From a bacterium (GTDB lineage: Bacteria > Bdellovibrionota_C > UBA2361 > RFPC01), in assembly GCA_009926305.1 (NCBI GenBank), contig RFPC01000015.1:1-42842 (forward strand): 42,842 nucleotides of DNA. Direction: 5' to 3'. This document shows positions 1,631 to 6,912 of this stretch, piece by piece. The position numbers were made by a program, and so were the translations under genes. The notes under the pieces are model-generated. The model was not told where the DNA came from. It saw nothing but the letters and a program-made list of their open reading frames with translations, and did no database searches. Position 1 is the stretch's first letter. Each line of letters starts with the position of its first letter.

Positions 1631-3040
1631 TTAACTTTTATCAATCTCTCTGCTCGCTATTTTTGAAGGAGAGAGAGGAATACGTTTCCCATGAGGGTCA
1701 TTCCTGGGCTCAGGCGTTGCACGAGCGAGAGCGTGGTCTTGTGATTCCGAGGTAAAGTGTTCAAGAGCTTCAGCAGTTTCATGGACATGATCCGGCTCAA
1801 CTCCGGCTTCTTCAACAAGGTAGCTCTCGAGTAATCGATGAGTTCTGATCAGTTTTCGCGCTTCATTTCGACCATCTGCTGTGAGCCCGACAAGCGCTCC
1901 CTTCCTGACAAGAAAATTGTTATCAACAAGTCTCTTGACGGTGCGCCGTTCTCGCTTTCTATAGTCCGCAGTATCGGATGTAGCAGATGACTTTTTAAGA
2001 ATCTCTTGGACGGCTGCTTGTGAGAAGAGACGAGTTTCTTTACTAGCGTCTTCCTCTAAACGGAATAGCGCGGCGAGAATATCTTCTTGTAGGATTCTAT
2101 TTTGCAGCACATTTTTTCTATAACGACGCCCTATAGTCCCATAGCGAGGTGAGAAGCAAATTGAGCCGATCAGGAGGATGCCTCCCAGTGCAGCAATCAT
2201 CCCAGCAGCATTCAATGAGGAGGAGCTCCCAAGAATGAGAGGCAGAAATACTGCTACACAATATCCTCCTACGCTCATGAGTATTGCAAACAGAACGCTG
2301 AGCATGAGTTGCGTATTCAACTTATCGGTGAACAGTCGCGCACATGCAGCTGGAGAAATAATCATCGCAATAACAAGAATAGAACCGACCGCTTTAAAGG
2401 AAGCCACCACGGCAACCGCCAGCACAAGCATCAGCAGGTTGTTAAGCATGTTGCTTGAAAATCCCATTGAAGTCGCAAGTGTTGGATCAAAGGAGGAGAG
2501 AGTTAGCTCTTTCTTGAATAGGAGGATGATGAAGAGAACCGAAAGAAAGCAGAGCGCTGAAGTTATCAGCTCCTCTGGAAGCAATTGAAGAGATGATGCC
2601 GTTAGCAATGTGGTGATATCGGATGGTGGAAGCCAGAATATGCTTTCAAGTTGCCCGTAGAGTAAGCAATCAGCATCGAGATCCACATGTCGTGCAGCCG
2701 CTTGCTCTATTAGTAATACGCCCAAGGCGAAAAAAAGTGGGAAGACTATCCCAATTGTTGCACTTGTTTCAACAAAGCGATTCCGACGGAGGAATTCGAT
2801 GCAAAGTGCGCTTACGACACCCGCAATAGCTGCTCCCAAAAATACTGATAGGCTGCTTCGATGAGAGGAAAGAAGAAAAGCAATAACAATTCCTGGAAGA
2901 ACAGAGTGAGCAATCGCATCTCCCATGAGACTTTGTCGCCGTAAGATCAGATAATTCCCAAGAAGTCCACATGCGCTTGAGGATAGGATCGCAGTAAGGA
3001 GTGGAGGAAGGTCAATAGCGATGAATTCCCAGGAAGTCAT
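1631..3040 (-). CDS. mntD: Metal ABC transporter permease fused to a C-terminal MntR/DtxR-like domain
   Basis: Residues 1-295 form an ABC-3 family permease (TroD/MntD/ZnuB type) with about eight membrane segments. The diagnostic stretch RRQSLMGDAIAHSVLPG is at 34-50. Residues about 311-460 are not permease but align by eye with the DtxR/MntR repressor family: a winged-helix-like part (QAAVQEILKK...VKRLVDNNFLV) and the metal-binding dimerisation helices. Every principal ligand position after the first helix is filled: H401, E405, H420, E424, E427, H428. Glu rather than Cys at the DtxR C102 position, and D320 at the DtxR M10 position, are MntR-like choices. The tail HGKRIPLSP resembles the conserved GNPIP stretch of DtxR. 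At 469 residues it is about 170 longer than a plain permease. Its start overlaps the upstream permease by ATGA. Chlamydial YtgCR is a known permease-repressor fusion of this kind; whether this one is cleaved or binds DNA is inference. Confidence 0.9.
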   Translation of the reverse strand: MTSWEFIAIDLPPLLTAILSSSACGLLGNYLILRRQSLMGDAIAHSVLPGIVIAFLLSSHRSSLSVFLGAAIAGVVSALCIEFLRRNRFVETSATIGIVFPLFFALGVLLIEQAAARHVDLDADCLLYGQLESIFWLPPSDITTLLTASSLQLLPEELITSALCFLSVLFIILLFKKELTLSSFDPTLATSMGFSSNMLNNLLMLVLAVAVVASFKAVGSILVIAMIISPAACARLFTDKLNTQLMLSVLFAILMSVGGYCVAVFLPLILGSSSSLNAAGMIAALGGILLIGSICFSPRYGTIGRRYRKNVLQNRILQEDILAALFRLEEDASKETRLFSQAAVQEILKKSSATSDTADYRKRERRTVKRLVDNNFLVRKGALVGLTADGRNEARKLIRTHRLLESYLVEEAGVEPDHVHETAEALEHFTSESQDHALARATPEPRNDPHGKRIPLSPSKIASREIDKS

Positions 3041-4413
3041 AATTCTTGCCCCTGCTCATTCTCATCAATGGGGTCTTGGCCTGCACCTTGAGATCTCTTT
3101 TCTAGTTTTTCAAGAATATCTGAAGATATGAAGTGCTCGACATAATCAGCAGAGAGATCGAGATGAGAAGGAGGAAGCTCCTCCTGGACGGAGGAGAGAT
3201 AGGCCTCCCATAAGTGATGACTTTTTTCTCGCATCTGTCCTATGCGGTATCCTTTCGTAGTGAGTTGTATGCCCTGAGAAGAAAAGTATGCAAGCCCTCG
3301 AAGACAAAACAGGAGTGAATGAATGATGCGAAGACTGAGAGACCAGTTTTGAGCTATGCTTAGCTCGCTATAGCGTATGAGTGGGAGTGGTGAAGAATCG
3401 AAGGGAGTGTTCTTTTCTGAAAGACAGCCAATAACCTCTCTCAGAACGTGATCCCGCAATACTCGTAATCGTAACCGAAGTTGTCTGAATCCTGATGCGA
3501 TAAGACCTCGCTGAGGTGCGAAGAGTAGGCTACAGAAGAAGAATACTCCTGCGGTAAGGGTAATCACAGCCCCTGCCGGGAGACGAGGAAGAAGGGCGGA
3601 GAGTCCTGAGCCGAAAAAACCGCTTGCACCACCAATTATTGCGCTGAGCAGGGTCATGGTAGTTAGCCGATCGGTCCAGAAACGTGCTGCTGCAGGAGGA
3701 ATTATGAGAAGTGACACAATGAGGAGTACTCCCACAACGTGTAGCCCTGCCACTGCTACGACCACGAGGAGTGTCATAAGATATAAATCAAGAAGGTGTA
3801 CTGGCCAGCCATCAGAGCGCGCAAAATCTTCATCAAAGCAAATAAGTCTTATCTCTTTGAGTGGAATAAGAGCTCCAATGGTGACAAGGCAGGCAATCAA
3901 CAGTAAGAGACGTGCATCATCATAATTTAACGAAGCAGTTTGTCCAAAAATAAAGTGGCTAAGACCGCCCTCGTCGCCAGTCCCGAGCACTTGAATTACG
4001 CTAATCAGGACAATGCCCAGCCCAAAAAAAGAGCTGAGTACAACACCGATAGCAGTGTCTTCATGGAGACGAGAAGAGCGAACGATCCACTGCACAAGTC
4101 CTACACCTAATATCCCTGTAAAACTTGCTCCCACAAGAAGTGAGGGCAGGTGCTTCCCATTGACTCCGATTGTCGTTCCAAGGAGGAATGCAAGAGCTAG
4201 GCCTGGAAGTGTGCAGTGAGCAATCGCATCTGCCATGAGTGCTCGTTTTCGGAGGATGCTCATCGTTCCAACGACCCCTGCAGCGATTCCCAGTACCGAG
4301 GTGCCGAGCAGGACCAGATTCGCATTTAAGCCACTCTGAAATGATACGATACTGATCCATTCGCTCCAAAGGGCGGATTCACTGAAATGTGCTGTGGAGA
4401 GGGGTGTTGCCAT
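3037..4413 (-). CDS. mntC: Metal ABC transporter permease with a degenerate C-terminal DtxR-like domain
   Basis: An ABC-3 family membrane permease occupies residues 25-305, with the signature RKRALMADAIAHCTLPG at 55-71 and about eight hydrophobic segments. Residues 320-440 are an extra cytoplasmic domain. The helix LTTKGYRIGQMREKSHHLWE and the later SADYVEHFIS match the metal-binding helices of DtxR/MntR. Ligand-like residues are H399, E403, D423, E426 and H427. The position of DtxR H98 is Asp, and the segment where the DNA-reading helix should be (350-380) is hydrophobic and not obviously a helix-turn-helix. So this second fused domain may keep metal sensing but lose DNA binding. The gene is translationally coupled to the next permease by a 4-base overlap and starts 22 bases after the ATPase gene. 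At 458 residues it is much longer than typical TroC/MntC proteins. Confidence 0.88.
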   Translation of the reverse strand: MATPLSTAHFSESALWSEWISIVSFQSGLNANLVLLGTSVLGIAAGVVGTMSILRKRALMADAIAHCTLPGLALAFLLGTTIGVNGKHLPSLLVGASFTGILGVGLVQWIVRSSRLHEDTAIGVVLSSFFGLGIVLISVIQVLGTGDEGGLSHFIFGQTASLNYDDARLLLLIACLVTIGALIPLKEIRLICFDEDFARSDGWPVHLLDLYLMTLLVVVAVAGLHVVGVLLIVSLLIIPPAAARFWTDRLTTMTLLSAIIGGASGFFGSGLSALLPRLPAGAVITLTAGVFFFCSLLFAPQRGLIASGFRQLRLRLRVLRDHVLREVIGCLSEKNTPFDSSPLPLIRYSELSIAQNWSLSLRIIHSLLFCLRGLAYFSSQGIQLTTKGYRIGQMREKSHHLWEAYLSSVQEELPPSHLDLSADYVEHFISSDILEKLEKRSQGAGQDPIDENEQGQEL

Positions 4414-4435: not shown

Positions 4436-5272
4436 CTACTCGGGAAGCTTTTCTCCTCTGGTCGCTCTGGCAAGCGCCTCACCCACTTCATCGAGGAGAG
4501 ATAGTTTTCCACCAAATGTTTTTCTGAGGTTGGACTCATTGAAAACATTCTCAACTGCGCCATGAGCAATGATACGAGTATTAAGCATGAGTACATGCTG
4601 GAAGTATTCTTTGACCGTTGAAAGATCATGGTGTACCGCAATGACAGATTTACCACTTTTTCGCAGTGTGTGGAGAATTTCGATAATTGCTTTTTCCGTT
4701 GTTGCATCAACACCTGCGAATGGTTCGTCCATGAAGTATAACTCTGCTTCCTGAGCAAGCGCTCTTGCCAGAAAGACTCGTTGTTGTTGGCCGCCGGAAA
4801 GTTGATTAATTTGCCGAGAGGCAAAGTCAGAAAGACCGACTTGATGGAGGTAGTGCCGAGCAGCCTCTTGATCTGCTTTTTTCACTCTTTTTAGCCAACC
4901 AATTTTTCGGTACCGCCCCATACAGACAACTTCAAGCGCCGATATAGGGAAATTCCAATCTACGGATTCTCTCTGAGGGATATATCCGATGCGATGCTGT
5001 ACCTCGTGATATGCTTTGCCCCAAAACTCAACAATTCCCGTCGCACGGGGGATCAGTTCTAGGCAGGCCTTGATCAGAGTCGATTTGCCTGCCCCGTTGG
5101 GTCCGACAATCGCAGTGAGTTTTCCGGTAGGGCAATCAAACTCCATATCCCATAGGACGGGTCTTTGGTCGTATGCAACGGTCATGGAATGCACGGAGAG
5201 AGGATTTGCTGCGCTATGCTCGGGCATAGCCTCAAGAGTTTGAGTTCTTCCGATTTGTTTCTTTCCACTCAC
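4436..5272 (-). CDS. mntB: Metal ABC transporter ATP-binding protein
   Basis: This cytoplasmic ATPase (278 residues) drives the neighbouring permeases. It shows Walker A GPNGAGKST (57-65), the Q-loop YIPQRESVDWNFP near 97-109, the ABC signature LSGGQQQ (158-164) and Walker B LYFMDEP (178-184), followed by the switch His in VIAVHHDL. The word QRESVDWNFP is characteristic of the Mn/Zn/Fe (TroB/MntB/ZnuC) subfamily. The start overlaps the 3' end of the binding-protein gene by ATGA. The N-terminus carries about 20 extra residues before the domain, so an internal start is possible. Metal specificity cannot be read from this subunit. Confidence 0.93.
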   Translation of the reverse strand: MSGKKQIGRTQTLEAMPEHSAANPLSVHSMTVAYDQRPVLWDMEFDCPTGKLTAIVGPNGAGKSTLIKACLELIPRATGIVEFWGKAYHEVQHRIGYIPQRESVDWNFPISALEVVCMGRYRKIGWLKRVKKADQEAARHYLHQVGLSDFASRQINQLSGGQQQRVFLARALAQEAELYFMDEPFAGVDATTEKAIIEILHTLRKSGKSVIAVHHDLSTVKEYFQHVLMLNTRIIAHGAVENVFNESNLRKTFGGKLSLLDEVGEALARATRGEKLPE

Positions 5273-6318
5273 GAGAGATCCTCCTTGTGTGACTGATTGG
5301 GCTCTTTTCGCATAGCAGTTACGAAAGTAGTAATGTTGTGTTTTATCATTCCTATGTAAGTCCCTTCTGGGGTTCCTTCTTCACCCATCGCATCAGAGAA
5401 AAGCGTGCCTCCGAGTTGTACGGTATGTCCTTGTGCCTCGCTTCCCTCTCTGATTGCTCTTACATTGCGGTCGGAAACAGTACTTTCAATGAATACGGCT
5501 GGCACTTCACGTTCGATCAGTTGGCTGACTATTCCCTTAATATCGCGAATCCCTGCCTCAGATTCAGTGCTGATTCCTTGAATGCCAATTACACGAACGC
5601 GGTAGCGAGTCCCAAAATAGTGAAATGCATCATGAGCGGTCACAAGCACTCTTTTGCGCTCAGGAATTAAGCGAATTGAATCCGAAGCAAATGCGTTGAG
5701 TTCATCAAGTTGAGAGAGATAATTATTCGTGTTTTTACGAATGACGGATTCCATGTTTGGGAAATGCGTAATCAGTGAATCCGAAATGATTCTTGTTACT
5801 TCTTTCCAGAGGATGGGATCCATCCATATATGCGGGTCATAAGCTTTAGTGTATTCCTCCGGTGCGTGAAGAAGGAGGGGATTGAGCAAATCTCCAACAG
5901 CAATCACATTCTGCTTTACTTTTTGAATTCGCTCTAAGGCATGTGCAAAACGACCTTCAAGTTTCAGGCCGTTGAGAAAGATAAGATCTGCTTTTAATAA
6001 AGATGCGATGTTGTCCCTCGTTGGCTTGTACATATGAGGGTCAACTCCAGAACGCATCAGATGTTGAACGTGCGCATGCTCTTGAACGAGATTTCTTATC
6101 GTGTCTCCTAACATGCCGGTGGTAGTAACAATGATTGGTGTTCTGGTATCTGAATATGAGGTGGAGGGCGAGAGCAGAATGCAAAGAACAAGAGCTGTAG
6201 TTATTCGGAGGGTGATGAGAGCATGATGCTTGAAGGAAGCGTCAAAGCGCGTAGGGTCCGCTGTGCAGTTTGCATTCCAGTTGGAGCACAGAAGCTTCCT
6301 AGACCCATAAGTATTCAT
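5269..6318 (-). CDS. mntA: Periplasmic metal-binding protein (TroA/MntA family)
   Basis: This is a cluster A-I solute-binding protein. After an unusually long polar N-terminus of about 30 residues comes a signal peptide (ALITLRITTALVLCILLS, ending near SYS56). The mature part has the family metal ligands in TroA order: H95 in DPHMYKPT, H163 in DPHIWMDP, H229 in AHDAFHYFG and D309 in LFSDAMG. Three His plus one Asp matches TroA, which binds Zn and Mn; PsaA/MntC-type proteins have Glu at the third position. First gene of the operon, about 20 bases downstream of the inferred transcription start. No ATG, GTG or TTG lies closer to the signal peptide, so the long N-terminus may be real. Confidence 0.92.
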   Translation of the reverse strand: MNTYGSRKLLCSNWNANCTADPTRFDASFKHHALITLRITTALVLCILLSPSTSYSDTRTPIIVTTTGMLGDTIRNLVQEHAHVQHLMRSGVDPHMYKPTRDNIASLLKADLIFLNGLKLEGRFAHALERIQKVKQNVIAVGDLLNPLLLHAPEEYTKAYDPHIWMDPILWKEVTRIISDSLITHFPNMESVIRKNTNNYLSQLDELNAFASDSIRLIPERKRVLVTAHDAFHYFGTRYRVRVIGIQGISTESEAGIRDIKGIVSQLIEREVPAVFIESTVSDRNVRAIREGSEAQGHTVQLGGTLFSDAMGEEGTPEGTYIGMIKHNITTFVTAMRKEPNQSHKEDLS

Positions 6319-6344: not shown

Positions 6345-6374
6345 ATTATCAGTGTAGCATATGCTACATGTCAA
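6345..6374 (-). promoter_or_regulatory. Promoter of the metal transporter operon
   Basis: On the minus strand a perfect TTGACA (-35, plus-strand 6369-6374) is followed by an 18-base spacer and GATAAT (-10, plus-strand 6345-6350), five of six matching the consensus. Transcription would begin near 6338, about 20 bases before the mntA ATG at 6318. The spacer is almost entirely occupied by the palindromic operator. Confidence 0.8.
6353..6368. promoter_or_regulatory. MntR-type operator, perfect 16-bp palindrome
   Basis: TGTAGCATATGCTACA is its own reverse complement. It lies between the divergent mntA and mntR genes, exactly between the -35 and -10 of the mntA promoter, so a bound repressor would block RNA polymerase. 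The TAGCA/TGCTA half-sites resemble known MntR boxes (E. coli type, ATAGC...GCTAT). A weak mntR promoter (TTGCGT at 6331-6336, TAGCAT at 6355-6360, 18-base spacer) also overlaps it, suggesting autoregulation. Confidence 0.8.
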
Positions 6375-6432
6375 GGTCTCGAGAGGACAAATCAAGGTTT
6401 TATCTGGGTGCTTTTATGGTGGAAGAGAGAAG

Positions 6433-6912
6433 ATGAGGAGAAAACCGAACAAAGATAGTAAAAAGCGGCGTGAGCCCAGAGATTCCTCAGATGCGAAGAG
6501 TTTGAGTTTTCGGGCAAGCCACTTCGAGACGAAGCGAGAGCAACACAATCTTGAGGCCGCGGAAGATTATACTGAGCTCGTATACGAACTTGAACAACGG
6601 ATTGGTGAGGCCCGTACCGGCACAATAGCAGAGCACCTCGGCATCTCCCACGTTACGGCACTTCGGACGATTAAGCGATTGCAGGCACTTGGATATCTGA
6701 AAACGGCACGTCAAAAGCCAGTAGAACTTACGGCCAAAGGAAGAAAGCTCGCTATCGCATCCAAAGCTCGTCATGAGATGCTAGTTGATTTTTTTGTATC
6801 ATTAGGAGTGCCAAGAGAGATAGCCGAACATGATGTGGAGGGTGCAGAACATCATTTTAGCAAAGTTACGCTTCGAAGAATCAGGCAGGAATTAGAAAGA
6901 CGGACGGACTAA
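6433..6912 (+). CDS. mntR: MntR, manganese-responsive DtxR-family regulator
   Basis: This 159-residue protein resembles E. coli MntR along its length: a charged N-terminal tail, EDYTELVYEL (44-53), a winged helix with GTIAEHLGISHVTALRTIKR (63-82), and the metal-binding helices ARHEMLVDFF and DVEGAEHHFS. Ligand positions are D45, E48, H114, E136, E139 and H140. The residue equivalent to DtxR E83 is Val. An ATG at 6361 in the same frame is rejected because it lies inside the palindromic operator and near the probable transcription start. The ATG at 6433 has GGAAGAG just upstream. Divergent from the transporter operon it very likely controls. It lacks the C-terminal SH3-like domain of long DtxR proteins, as MntR does. 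Confidence 0.92.
   Translation: MRRKPNKDSKKRREPRDSSDAKSLSFRASHFETKREQHNLEAAEDYTELVYELEQRIGEARTGTIAEHLGISHVTALRTIKRLQALGYLKTARQKPVELTAKGRKLAIASKARHEMLVDFFVSLGVPREIAEHDVEGAEHHFSKVTLRRIRQELERRTD

Follow-up and report, generated by a model that had tools for sequence, protein, structure and literature searches.

YtgCR of Chlamydia trachomatis is a permease-repressor fusion for which cleavage and DNA binding have been reported (PMC5599777, PMC7755916), and orthologous single permease-repressor fusions in 11 phyla are credited, in PMC5599777, to Thompson et al. (2012). In the trans-inhibited importers MetNI and ModABC, the regulatory domain is carried by the ATPase (PMC10710835), while the manganese importers PsaBC and MntBC are described in one account as homodimeric (PMC11779740). 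Few ABC importers are known from structures to be under direct feedback, and one review names no divalent transition-metal ABC importer among them. Here we describe a metal importer in which both permeases are fused to a DtxR/MntR-like domain.

Domain architecture and metal ligands of the two permeases

The window, which is the whole 42,842-nt stretch of DNA that was analysed, contains a compact minus-strand operon as determined by open reading frame calls and Pfam, with the gene order periplasmic metal-binding protein (SBP), ATPase, first permease (P1) and second permease (P2), and a divergent MntR gene (Table 1). The P1 gene overlaps the start of the P2 gene by 4 nt. ABC-3 permeases, a ZnuA-type SBP and an ABC ATPase were all found within this one operon, identifying it as an ABC-3 (Mn/Zn/Fe) importer. 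The transported metal is probably Mn2+, and possibly Fe2+, because the ATPase and MntR match manganese families best. The SBP scored best to the zinc family AztC, with all of its NCBIfam matches below cut-off, and the assignment to manganese is therefore not certain.

Table 1. Coordinates of the features of the importer locus in the window
Feature	Position	Strand	Evidence and remarks
Second permease P2, 469 aa	1631..3040	-	ORF, Pfam; ABC-3 membrane domain aa ~1-297 + DtxR-like domain; PsaC/PsaBC fold match
First permease P1, 458 aa	3037..4413	-	ORF, Pfam; ABC-3 membrane domain aa ~1-299 + divergent DtxR-like domain
DtxR-like domain of P2, aa 317-455	1676..2092	-	D320, H401, E405, H420, E424, E427, H428; DPHGKxIP tail; HTH region eroded
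DtxR-like domain of P1, aa 319-443	3085..3459	-	H322, H399, E403, D419, D423, E426, H427; HTH region eroded; without DPHG tail
ATP-binding subunit	4436..5272	-	ABC_tran; nearest NCBIfam is MntA/manganese-type
Periplasmic metal-binding protein (SBP), ZnuA family	5269..6318	-	Pfam/NCBIfam matches
Palindrome TGTAGCATATGCTACA, probable MntR operator, common to both divergent promoters	6353..6368	.	Perfect palindrome; conservation across loci
Stand-alone MntR, HTH intact	6361..6912 as called	+	Pfam, NCBIfam, alignment; probable start at ATG 6433

By Pfam, ABC_tran was the sole domain of the ATPase (278 aa), and the extra domains of this transporter sit on the permeases instead. The ABC-3 domain was found in P1 and P2 alike, followed in each by about 150 to 170 further residues, confirming the reading frames and coordinates given in a preliminary description of this DNA. 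Within these extensions, Fe_dep_repr_C was matched at aa 387-455 of P2 (E 1.2e-19) and at aa 385-448 of P1 (E 1e-4, under the Pfam curated cut-off). Among the fused proteins compared, the PF02742 metal-binding/dimerisation domain was detected in 21/21 (11 P2 and 10 P1) at E<=0.1. Comparison of orthologue profiles with solved DtxR-family structures recovered the whole two-domain core in both cases, over aa 319-449 of P2 (E 3.9e-24) and aa 322-437 of P1 (E 6.7e-7). AlphaFold models of both permeases, built on shallow alignments (10-11 sequences), displayed a PsaC-like permease and DtxR/MntR topology, consisting of a long first helix, two HTH-like helices, a wing, a long helix and the metal helix, with mean pLDDT values of 77 and 73 and with the P1 metal helix partly below 50. 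Foldseek matched the P2 model to PsaBC and then to DR2539/DtxR, and the P1 model to PsaBC and then to MntR (E ~0.06, probability 1.00). The proposal that both permeases have DtxR/MntR-like C termini was thus upheld by Pfam, by profiles of solved structures and by predicted folds.

The metal-coordinating residues of DtxR/MntR were conserved, with all core ligands in P2 and a conserved variant set in P1, and every ligand residue previously named for the two proteins was found in place. Across 85 orthologous P2 domains, conservation was 100% for D320, 99% for H401, 96% for E405, and 100% for H420, E427 and H428; position 424 was E in 72% and M in 20%. Across 80 orthologous P1 domains, conservation was 100% for H322 where present, 94% for H399, 86% for E403, 98% for D419 and for D423, 99% for E426 and 100% for H427. 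The two sets are near-invariant yet distinct, D-H-E-H-(E/M)-E-H in P2 versus H-H-E-D-D-E-H in P1, and the most frequent strings were DHEHEEH (57/85) and HHEDDEH (63/80). The invariant H322 of P1 occupies the position of D320 in P2, and D419 of P1 that of H420 in P2. P2 domains have a DPHG tail, which is absent from P1 domains. The P1 of the window forms a long branch and retains the full HHEDDEH set. Since P1 has its own conserved ligand set, the possibility that its domain is a decayed copy was rejected.

Occurrence and ancestry of the paired fusion

A survey of ABC-3 permeases showed the double fusion to be no peculiarity of this genome. Adjacent double fusions were present in 10 of 32 genomes of the window's class that were at least 85% complete. 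Counted as adjacent long-frame matches, they were present in at least 11 of 78 genomes in an even draw of Planctomycetota, to which the Rhodopirellula locus (L129) belongs, and in 7 of 79 genomes of the phylum containing Lentisphaeria. The 80 best named loci came from Phycisphaerae, Rhodopirellula, Thalassoglobus, 'Bdellovibrionales' MAGs and others, and in all 73 of them where both permeases could be read, both were fused; these loci were picked by their P2 match, so the figure indicates that a P2 fusion of this type brings a P1 fusion and is no measure of frequency in bacteria. In one further named locus, P2 was cut by a contig end. The relatives compared were mostly metagenome assemblies. 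Single fusions also occur in both versions, with P1 only or P2 only. In several phyla, this transporter family therefore commonly has the paired fusion, and a rarity peculiar to this genome was rejected by the class, phylum and named-locus surveys. As a consequence of this wide occurrence, the arrangement is better supported as functional.

Other arrangements were observed in these surveys. In some Planctomycetota (L133:1013-2239, L134:1124-2233), P2 has a shorter extension in which a winged-helix-like stretch is kept and the metal domain is absent, the reverse of the usual erosion. In three other Planctomycetota loci (L137, L138, L139), both permeases are extended and P1 is without most metal ligands (RNRWIQW...DLDEEDIEKLL). 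One permease gene per operon was recognised at L142, L143 and L148; its fused DtxR-like domain is longer and has an additional segment at the C terminus, and one member of this set had a FeoA match. An 806-aa open reading frame adjoining the transporter at L135:5348-7768 has a DtxR-like domain at aa 592-722 and is possibly another DtxR fusion.

Phylogenetic analysis of the permease domains resulted in a clean split between P1 and P2 (SH-aLRT 100). The fused C-terminal domains displayed the same split (SH-aLRT 88-90), and grouped together apart from the adjacent MntRs (SH-aLRT 99). The P1 and P2 domains are each inherited with their own permease, and the neighbouring MntR was rejected as their donor because it falls in a separate clade. 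Many forks of these trees are open, and their simplest, though weak, reading is that both permeases were already fused in an ancient pair and that one of the two domains was lost later in several lines.

DNA-reading region, linker and operator

The preliminary description had considered the DNA-reading region lost in P1. This was the case, but the loss was not limited to P1. In the part that reads DNA in DtxR, from the first helix to the wing, pairwise identity averaged 0.16 in P1 and P2 alike, as compared with 0.59 in their metal domains; the HTH columns align poorly, and 0.16 is about background. In stand-alone MntRs of the same loci, the corresponding values were 0.52 and 0.56, and the HVT of the recognition helix was invariant. 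The DtxR HTH domain (PF01325) was detected at E<=0.1 in 0/11 P2 and 0/10 P1 proteins versus 12/12 neighbouring stand-alone MntRs, and in 1/14 single fusions (E 0.038). Independently of any alignment, the length of the HTH stretch varied from 54 to 84 residues in P2 and from 55 to 99 in P1 (spread 30-44). The P2 of the window has an insertion of about 10 residues inside the HTH (aa 354-363) that, bar its last residue, is found in at most 6% of orthologues. An HTH eroded in this way could still bind DNA weakly or at lineage-specific sequences.

The linker was of fixed length. It starts at the conserved PxxG that follows the last membrane helix and reaches the first metal ligand after exactly 22 residues in 85/85 P2 and 74/75 P1 proteins. 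The AlphaFold models place the linker and the first ligand on one uninterrupted helix (aa 302-331 and 304-333) that includes the first helix of the DtxR-like domain. No conserved internal start was detected in the linker, an ATG with SD being found in 9/79 P2 and 3/71 P1 sequences versus 18/237 and 9/210 in the respective controls. Production of a soluble regulator from an internal translation start was rejected on these grounds.

The MntR previously noted beside the operon is present with its HTH intact. The palindrome TGTAGCATATGCTACA is the sole perfect TGTAGC-N4-GCTACA in the genome. With at most one mismatch, this motif precedes the SBP gene in 38/64 related loci, as compared with 2/300 matched control stretches; it is found in this position across phyla (L033-L132) and also at single-fusion loci (L041, L048, L049, L051). 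At L068, L085 and L089 it is arranged in tandem pairs. The sequence comparisons suggest that this motif is a conserved operator whose most plausible reader is the stand-alone MntR with its invariant HTH. The MntR gene as called would begin within the operator, and its true start is probably the downstream ATG. A stand-alone DtxR-like gene was present in 34/73 double-fusion loci within the stretch examined, and short stand-alone DtxR-like genes were present in the whole genomes checked. On contig 10 of the window's own genome, a second short DtxR-like gene (L153:2959-3375, 138 aa) is missing most metal ligands, has no operator nearby, and lies near genes that by eye are cytochrome oxidase subunit II-like, SCO-like and YqeY-like.

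A proposed role in transport feedback and its alternatives

We consider it rather probable that this locus encodes an importer with two permease-borne cytoplasmic DtxR-like metal sensors that give post-translational feedback on the transporter. With plentiful metal in the cytoplasm, the fused domains of P1 and P2 would bind it and pack differently, and the helix that connects them to the last transmembrane helix would transmit this change to the permeases or ATPases, keeping these from transporting (trans-inhibition). MntR and its operator would provide a second, transcriptional layer of control. Gating of transport by the fused domains is inferred. It is an even call whether the DtxR fold has been turned from a gene switch into an allosteric gate, with two asymmetric sensors that shut off transport directly and whose P1 and P2 sites are tuned to different affinity or metal.

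Among the interpretations offered earlier, three related sensor domains for one transporter with a built-in shut-off agree best with the evidence. An obligate P1-P2 heterodimer is disfavoured by the homologues of both versions in which one permease is fused. Release of the domains as repressors is likewise disfavoured. The HTH is eroded in P1 and P2, internal starts show no conservation, the linker has a fixed length and looks helical, and transcriptional control is already explained by a separate MntR with an intact HTH and its conserved operator. Against sensors on the permeases, the existence of single-fusion homologues indicates that the pair is not essential, and the known trans-inhibition domains of MetNI and ModABC are on the ATPase and not the permease (PMC10710835).

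The C-terminal domains might instead act as metal-dependent repressors of the operon, either cleaved off or tethered, since their overall architecture is that of the chlamydial fusion with its reported cleavage and DNA binding (PMC5599777, PMC7755916), and the models still show a DtxR core with its winged-helix topology. However, with HTH identity at background, PF01325 unmatched in P1 and P2, an insertion in the HTH of the window's P2, no conserved internal start, and a conserved operator that goes with a stand-alone MntR of invariant HTH, we regard such repression as very unlikely. Conserved ligands that differ between P1 and P2, as expected of two sites of unlike affinity, and fusion at a constant spacing from the channel would also be consistent with a metal relay or buffer, in which the domains bind the ion leaving the channel and either hand it on to cytoplasmic targets or prevent its back-flow, leaving transport ungated. 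DtxR-type sites, however, are known as sensors coupled to conformational change, and loss of one domain in several lineages suits modular regulation equally well. We consider a relay unlikely. The decay of the HTH, the loss of most ligands in some Planctomycetota pairs (L137-L139) and the P2 extensions left with a winged helix and no metal site (L133, L134) could point to structural relics of an ancestral fused repressor that only hold the permease pair together. This is hard to reconcile with ligands conserved at near 100% while the HTHs were randomised, or with a fixed linker length, and we give it little credence.

Relation to known systems

The sensor, linker and operator of this widespread family (Planctomycetota and others) are readable from sequence. 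The family suggests that a repressor role should not be presumed for DtxR-permease fusions; if the DtxR fold has become an allosteric gate, many of the 'permease-repressors' catalogued outside Chlamydia would be transport regulators. The locus is a variant of the known permease-DtxR fusion and, as a pair, is apparently undescribed: open-access literature searches for paired fusions, or for a DtxR domain as a transporter regulator, returned nothing beyond the chlamydial papers.

As in PsaBC and MntBC, the permease fold is that of manganese importers (7kyp/7kyo), but those importers are homodimeric, and the solved PsaC chain, at 282-290 residues, is too short to include a DtxR domain. MetNI and ModABC serve as a working analogy only, being importers with a C-terminal cytoplasmic domain of the kind that here would sense substrate; their sensor is of another fold and on the ATPase, whereas here it is on the permeases. 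The fused domains resemble MntR, DtxR, SloR and DR2539 in their two-domain core fold and in most of their metal ligands (best matches 5zr4, 8pvt, SloR and DtxR), and of the two Pfam domains of this family they have PF02742 and lack PF01325; unlike those regulators, they have no recognisable DNA-recognition helix and are fused to a membrane protein. Similar to YtgCR, an ABC-3 permease and a C-terminal DtxR/TroR-like domain with conserved metal ligands are joined in one chain, within an SBP-ATPase-permease-permease operon. In contrast to YtgCR as described in its publications, the fusion extends to both permeases, the ligand set of P1 is its own, the DNA-binding HTH expected of YtgCR-type fusions is eroded (PF01325 in 0/21 at E<=0.1), and the locus also has a separate MntR and a conserved operator.
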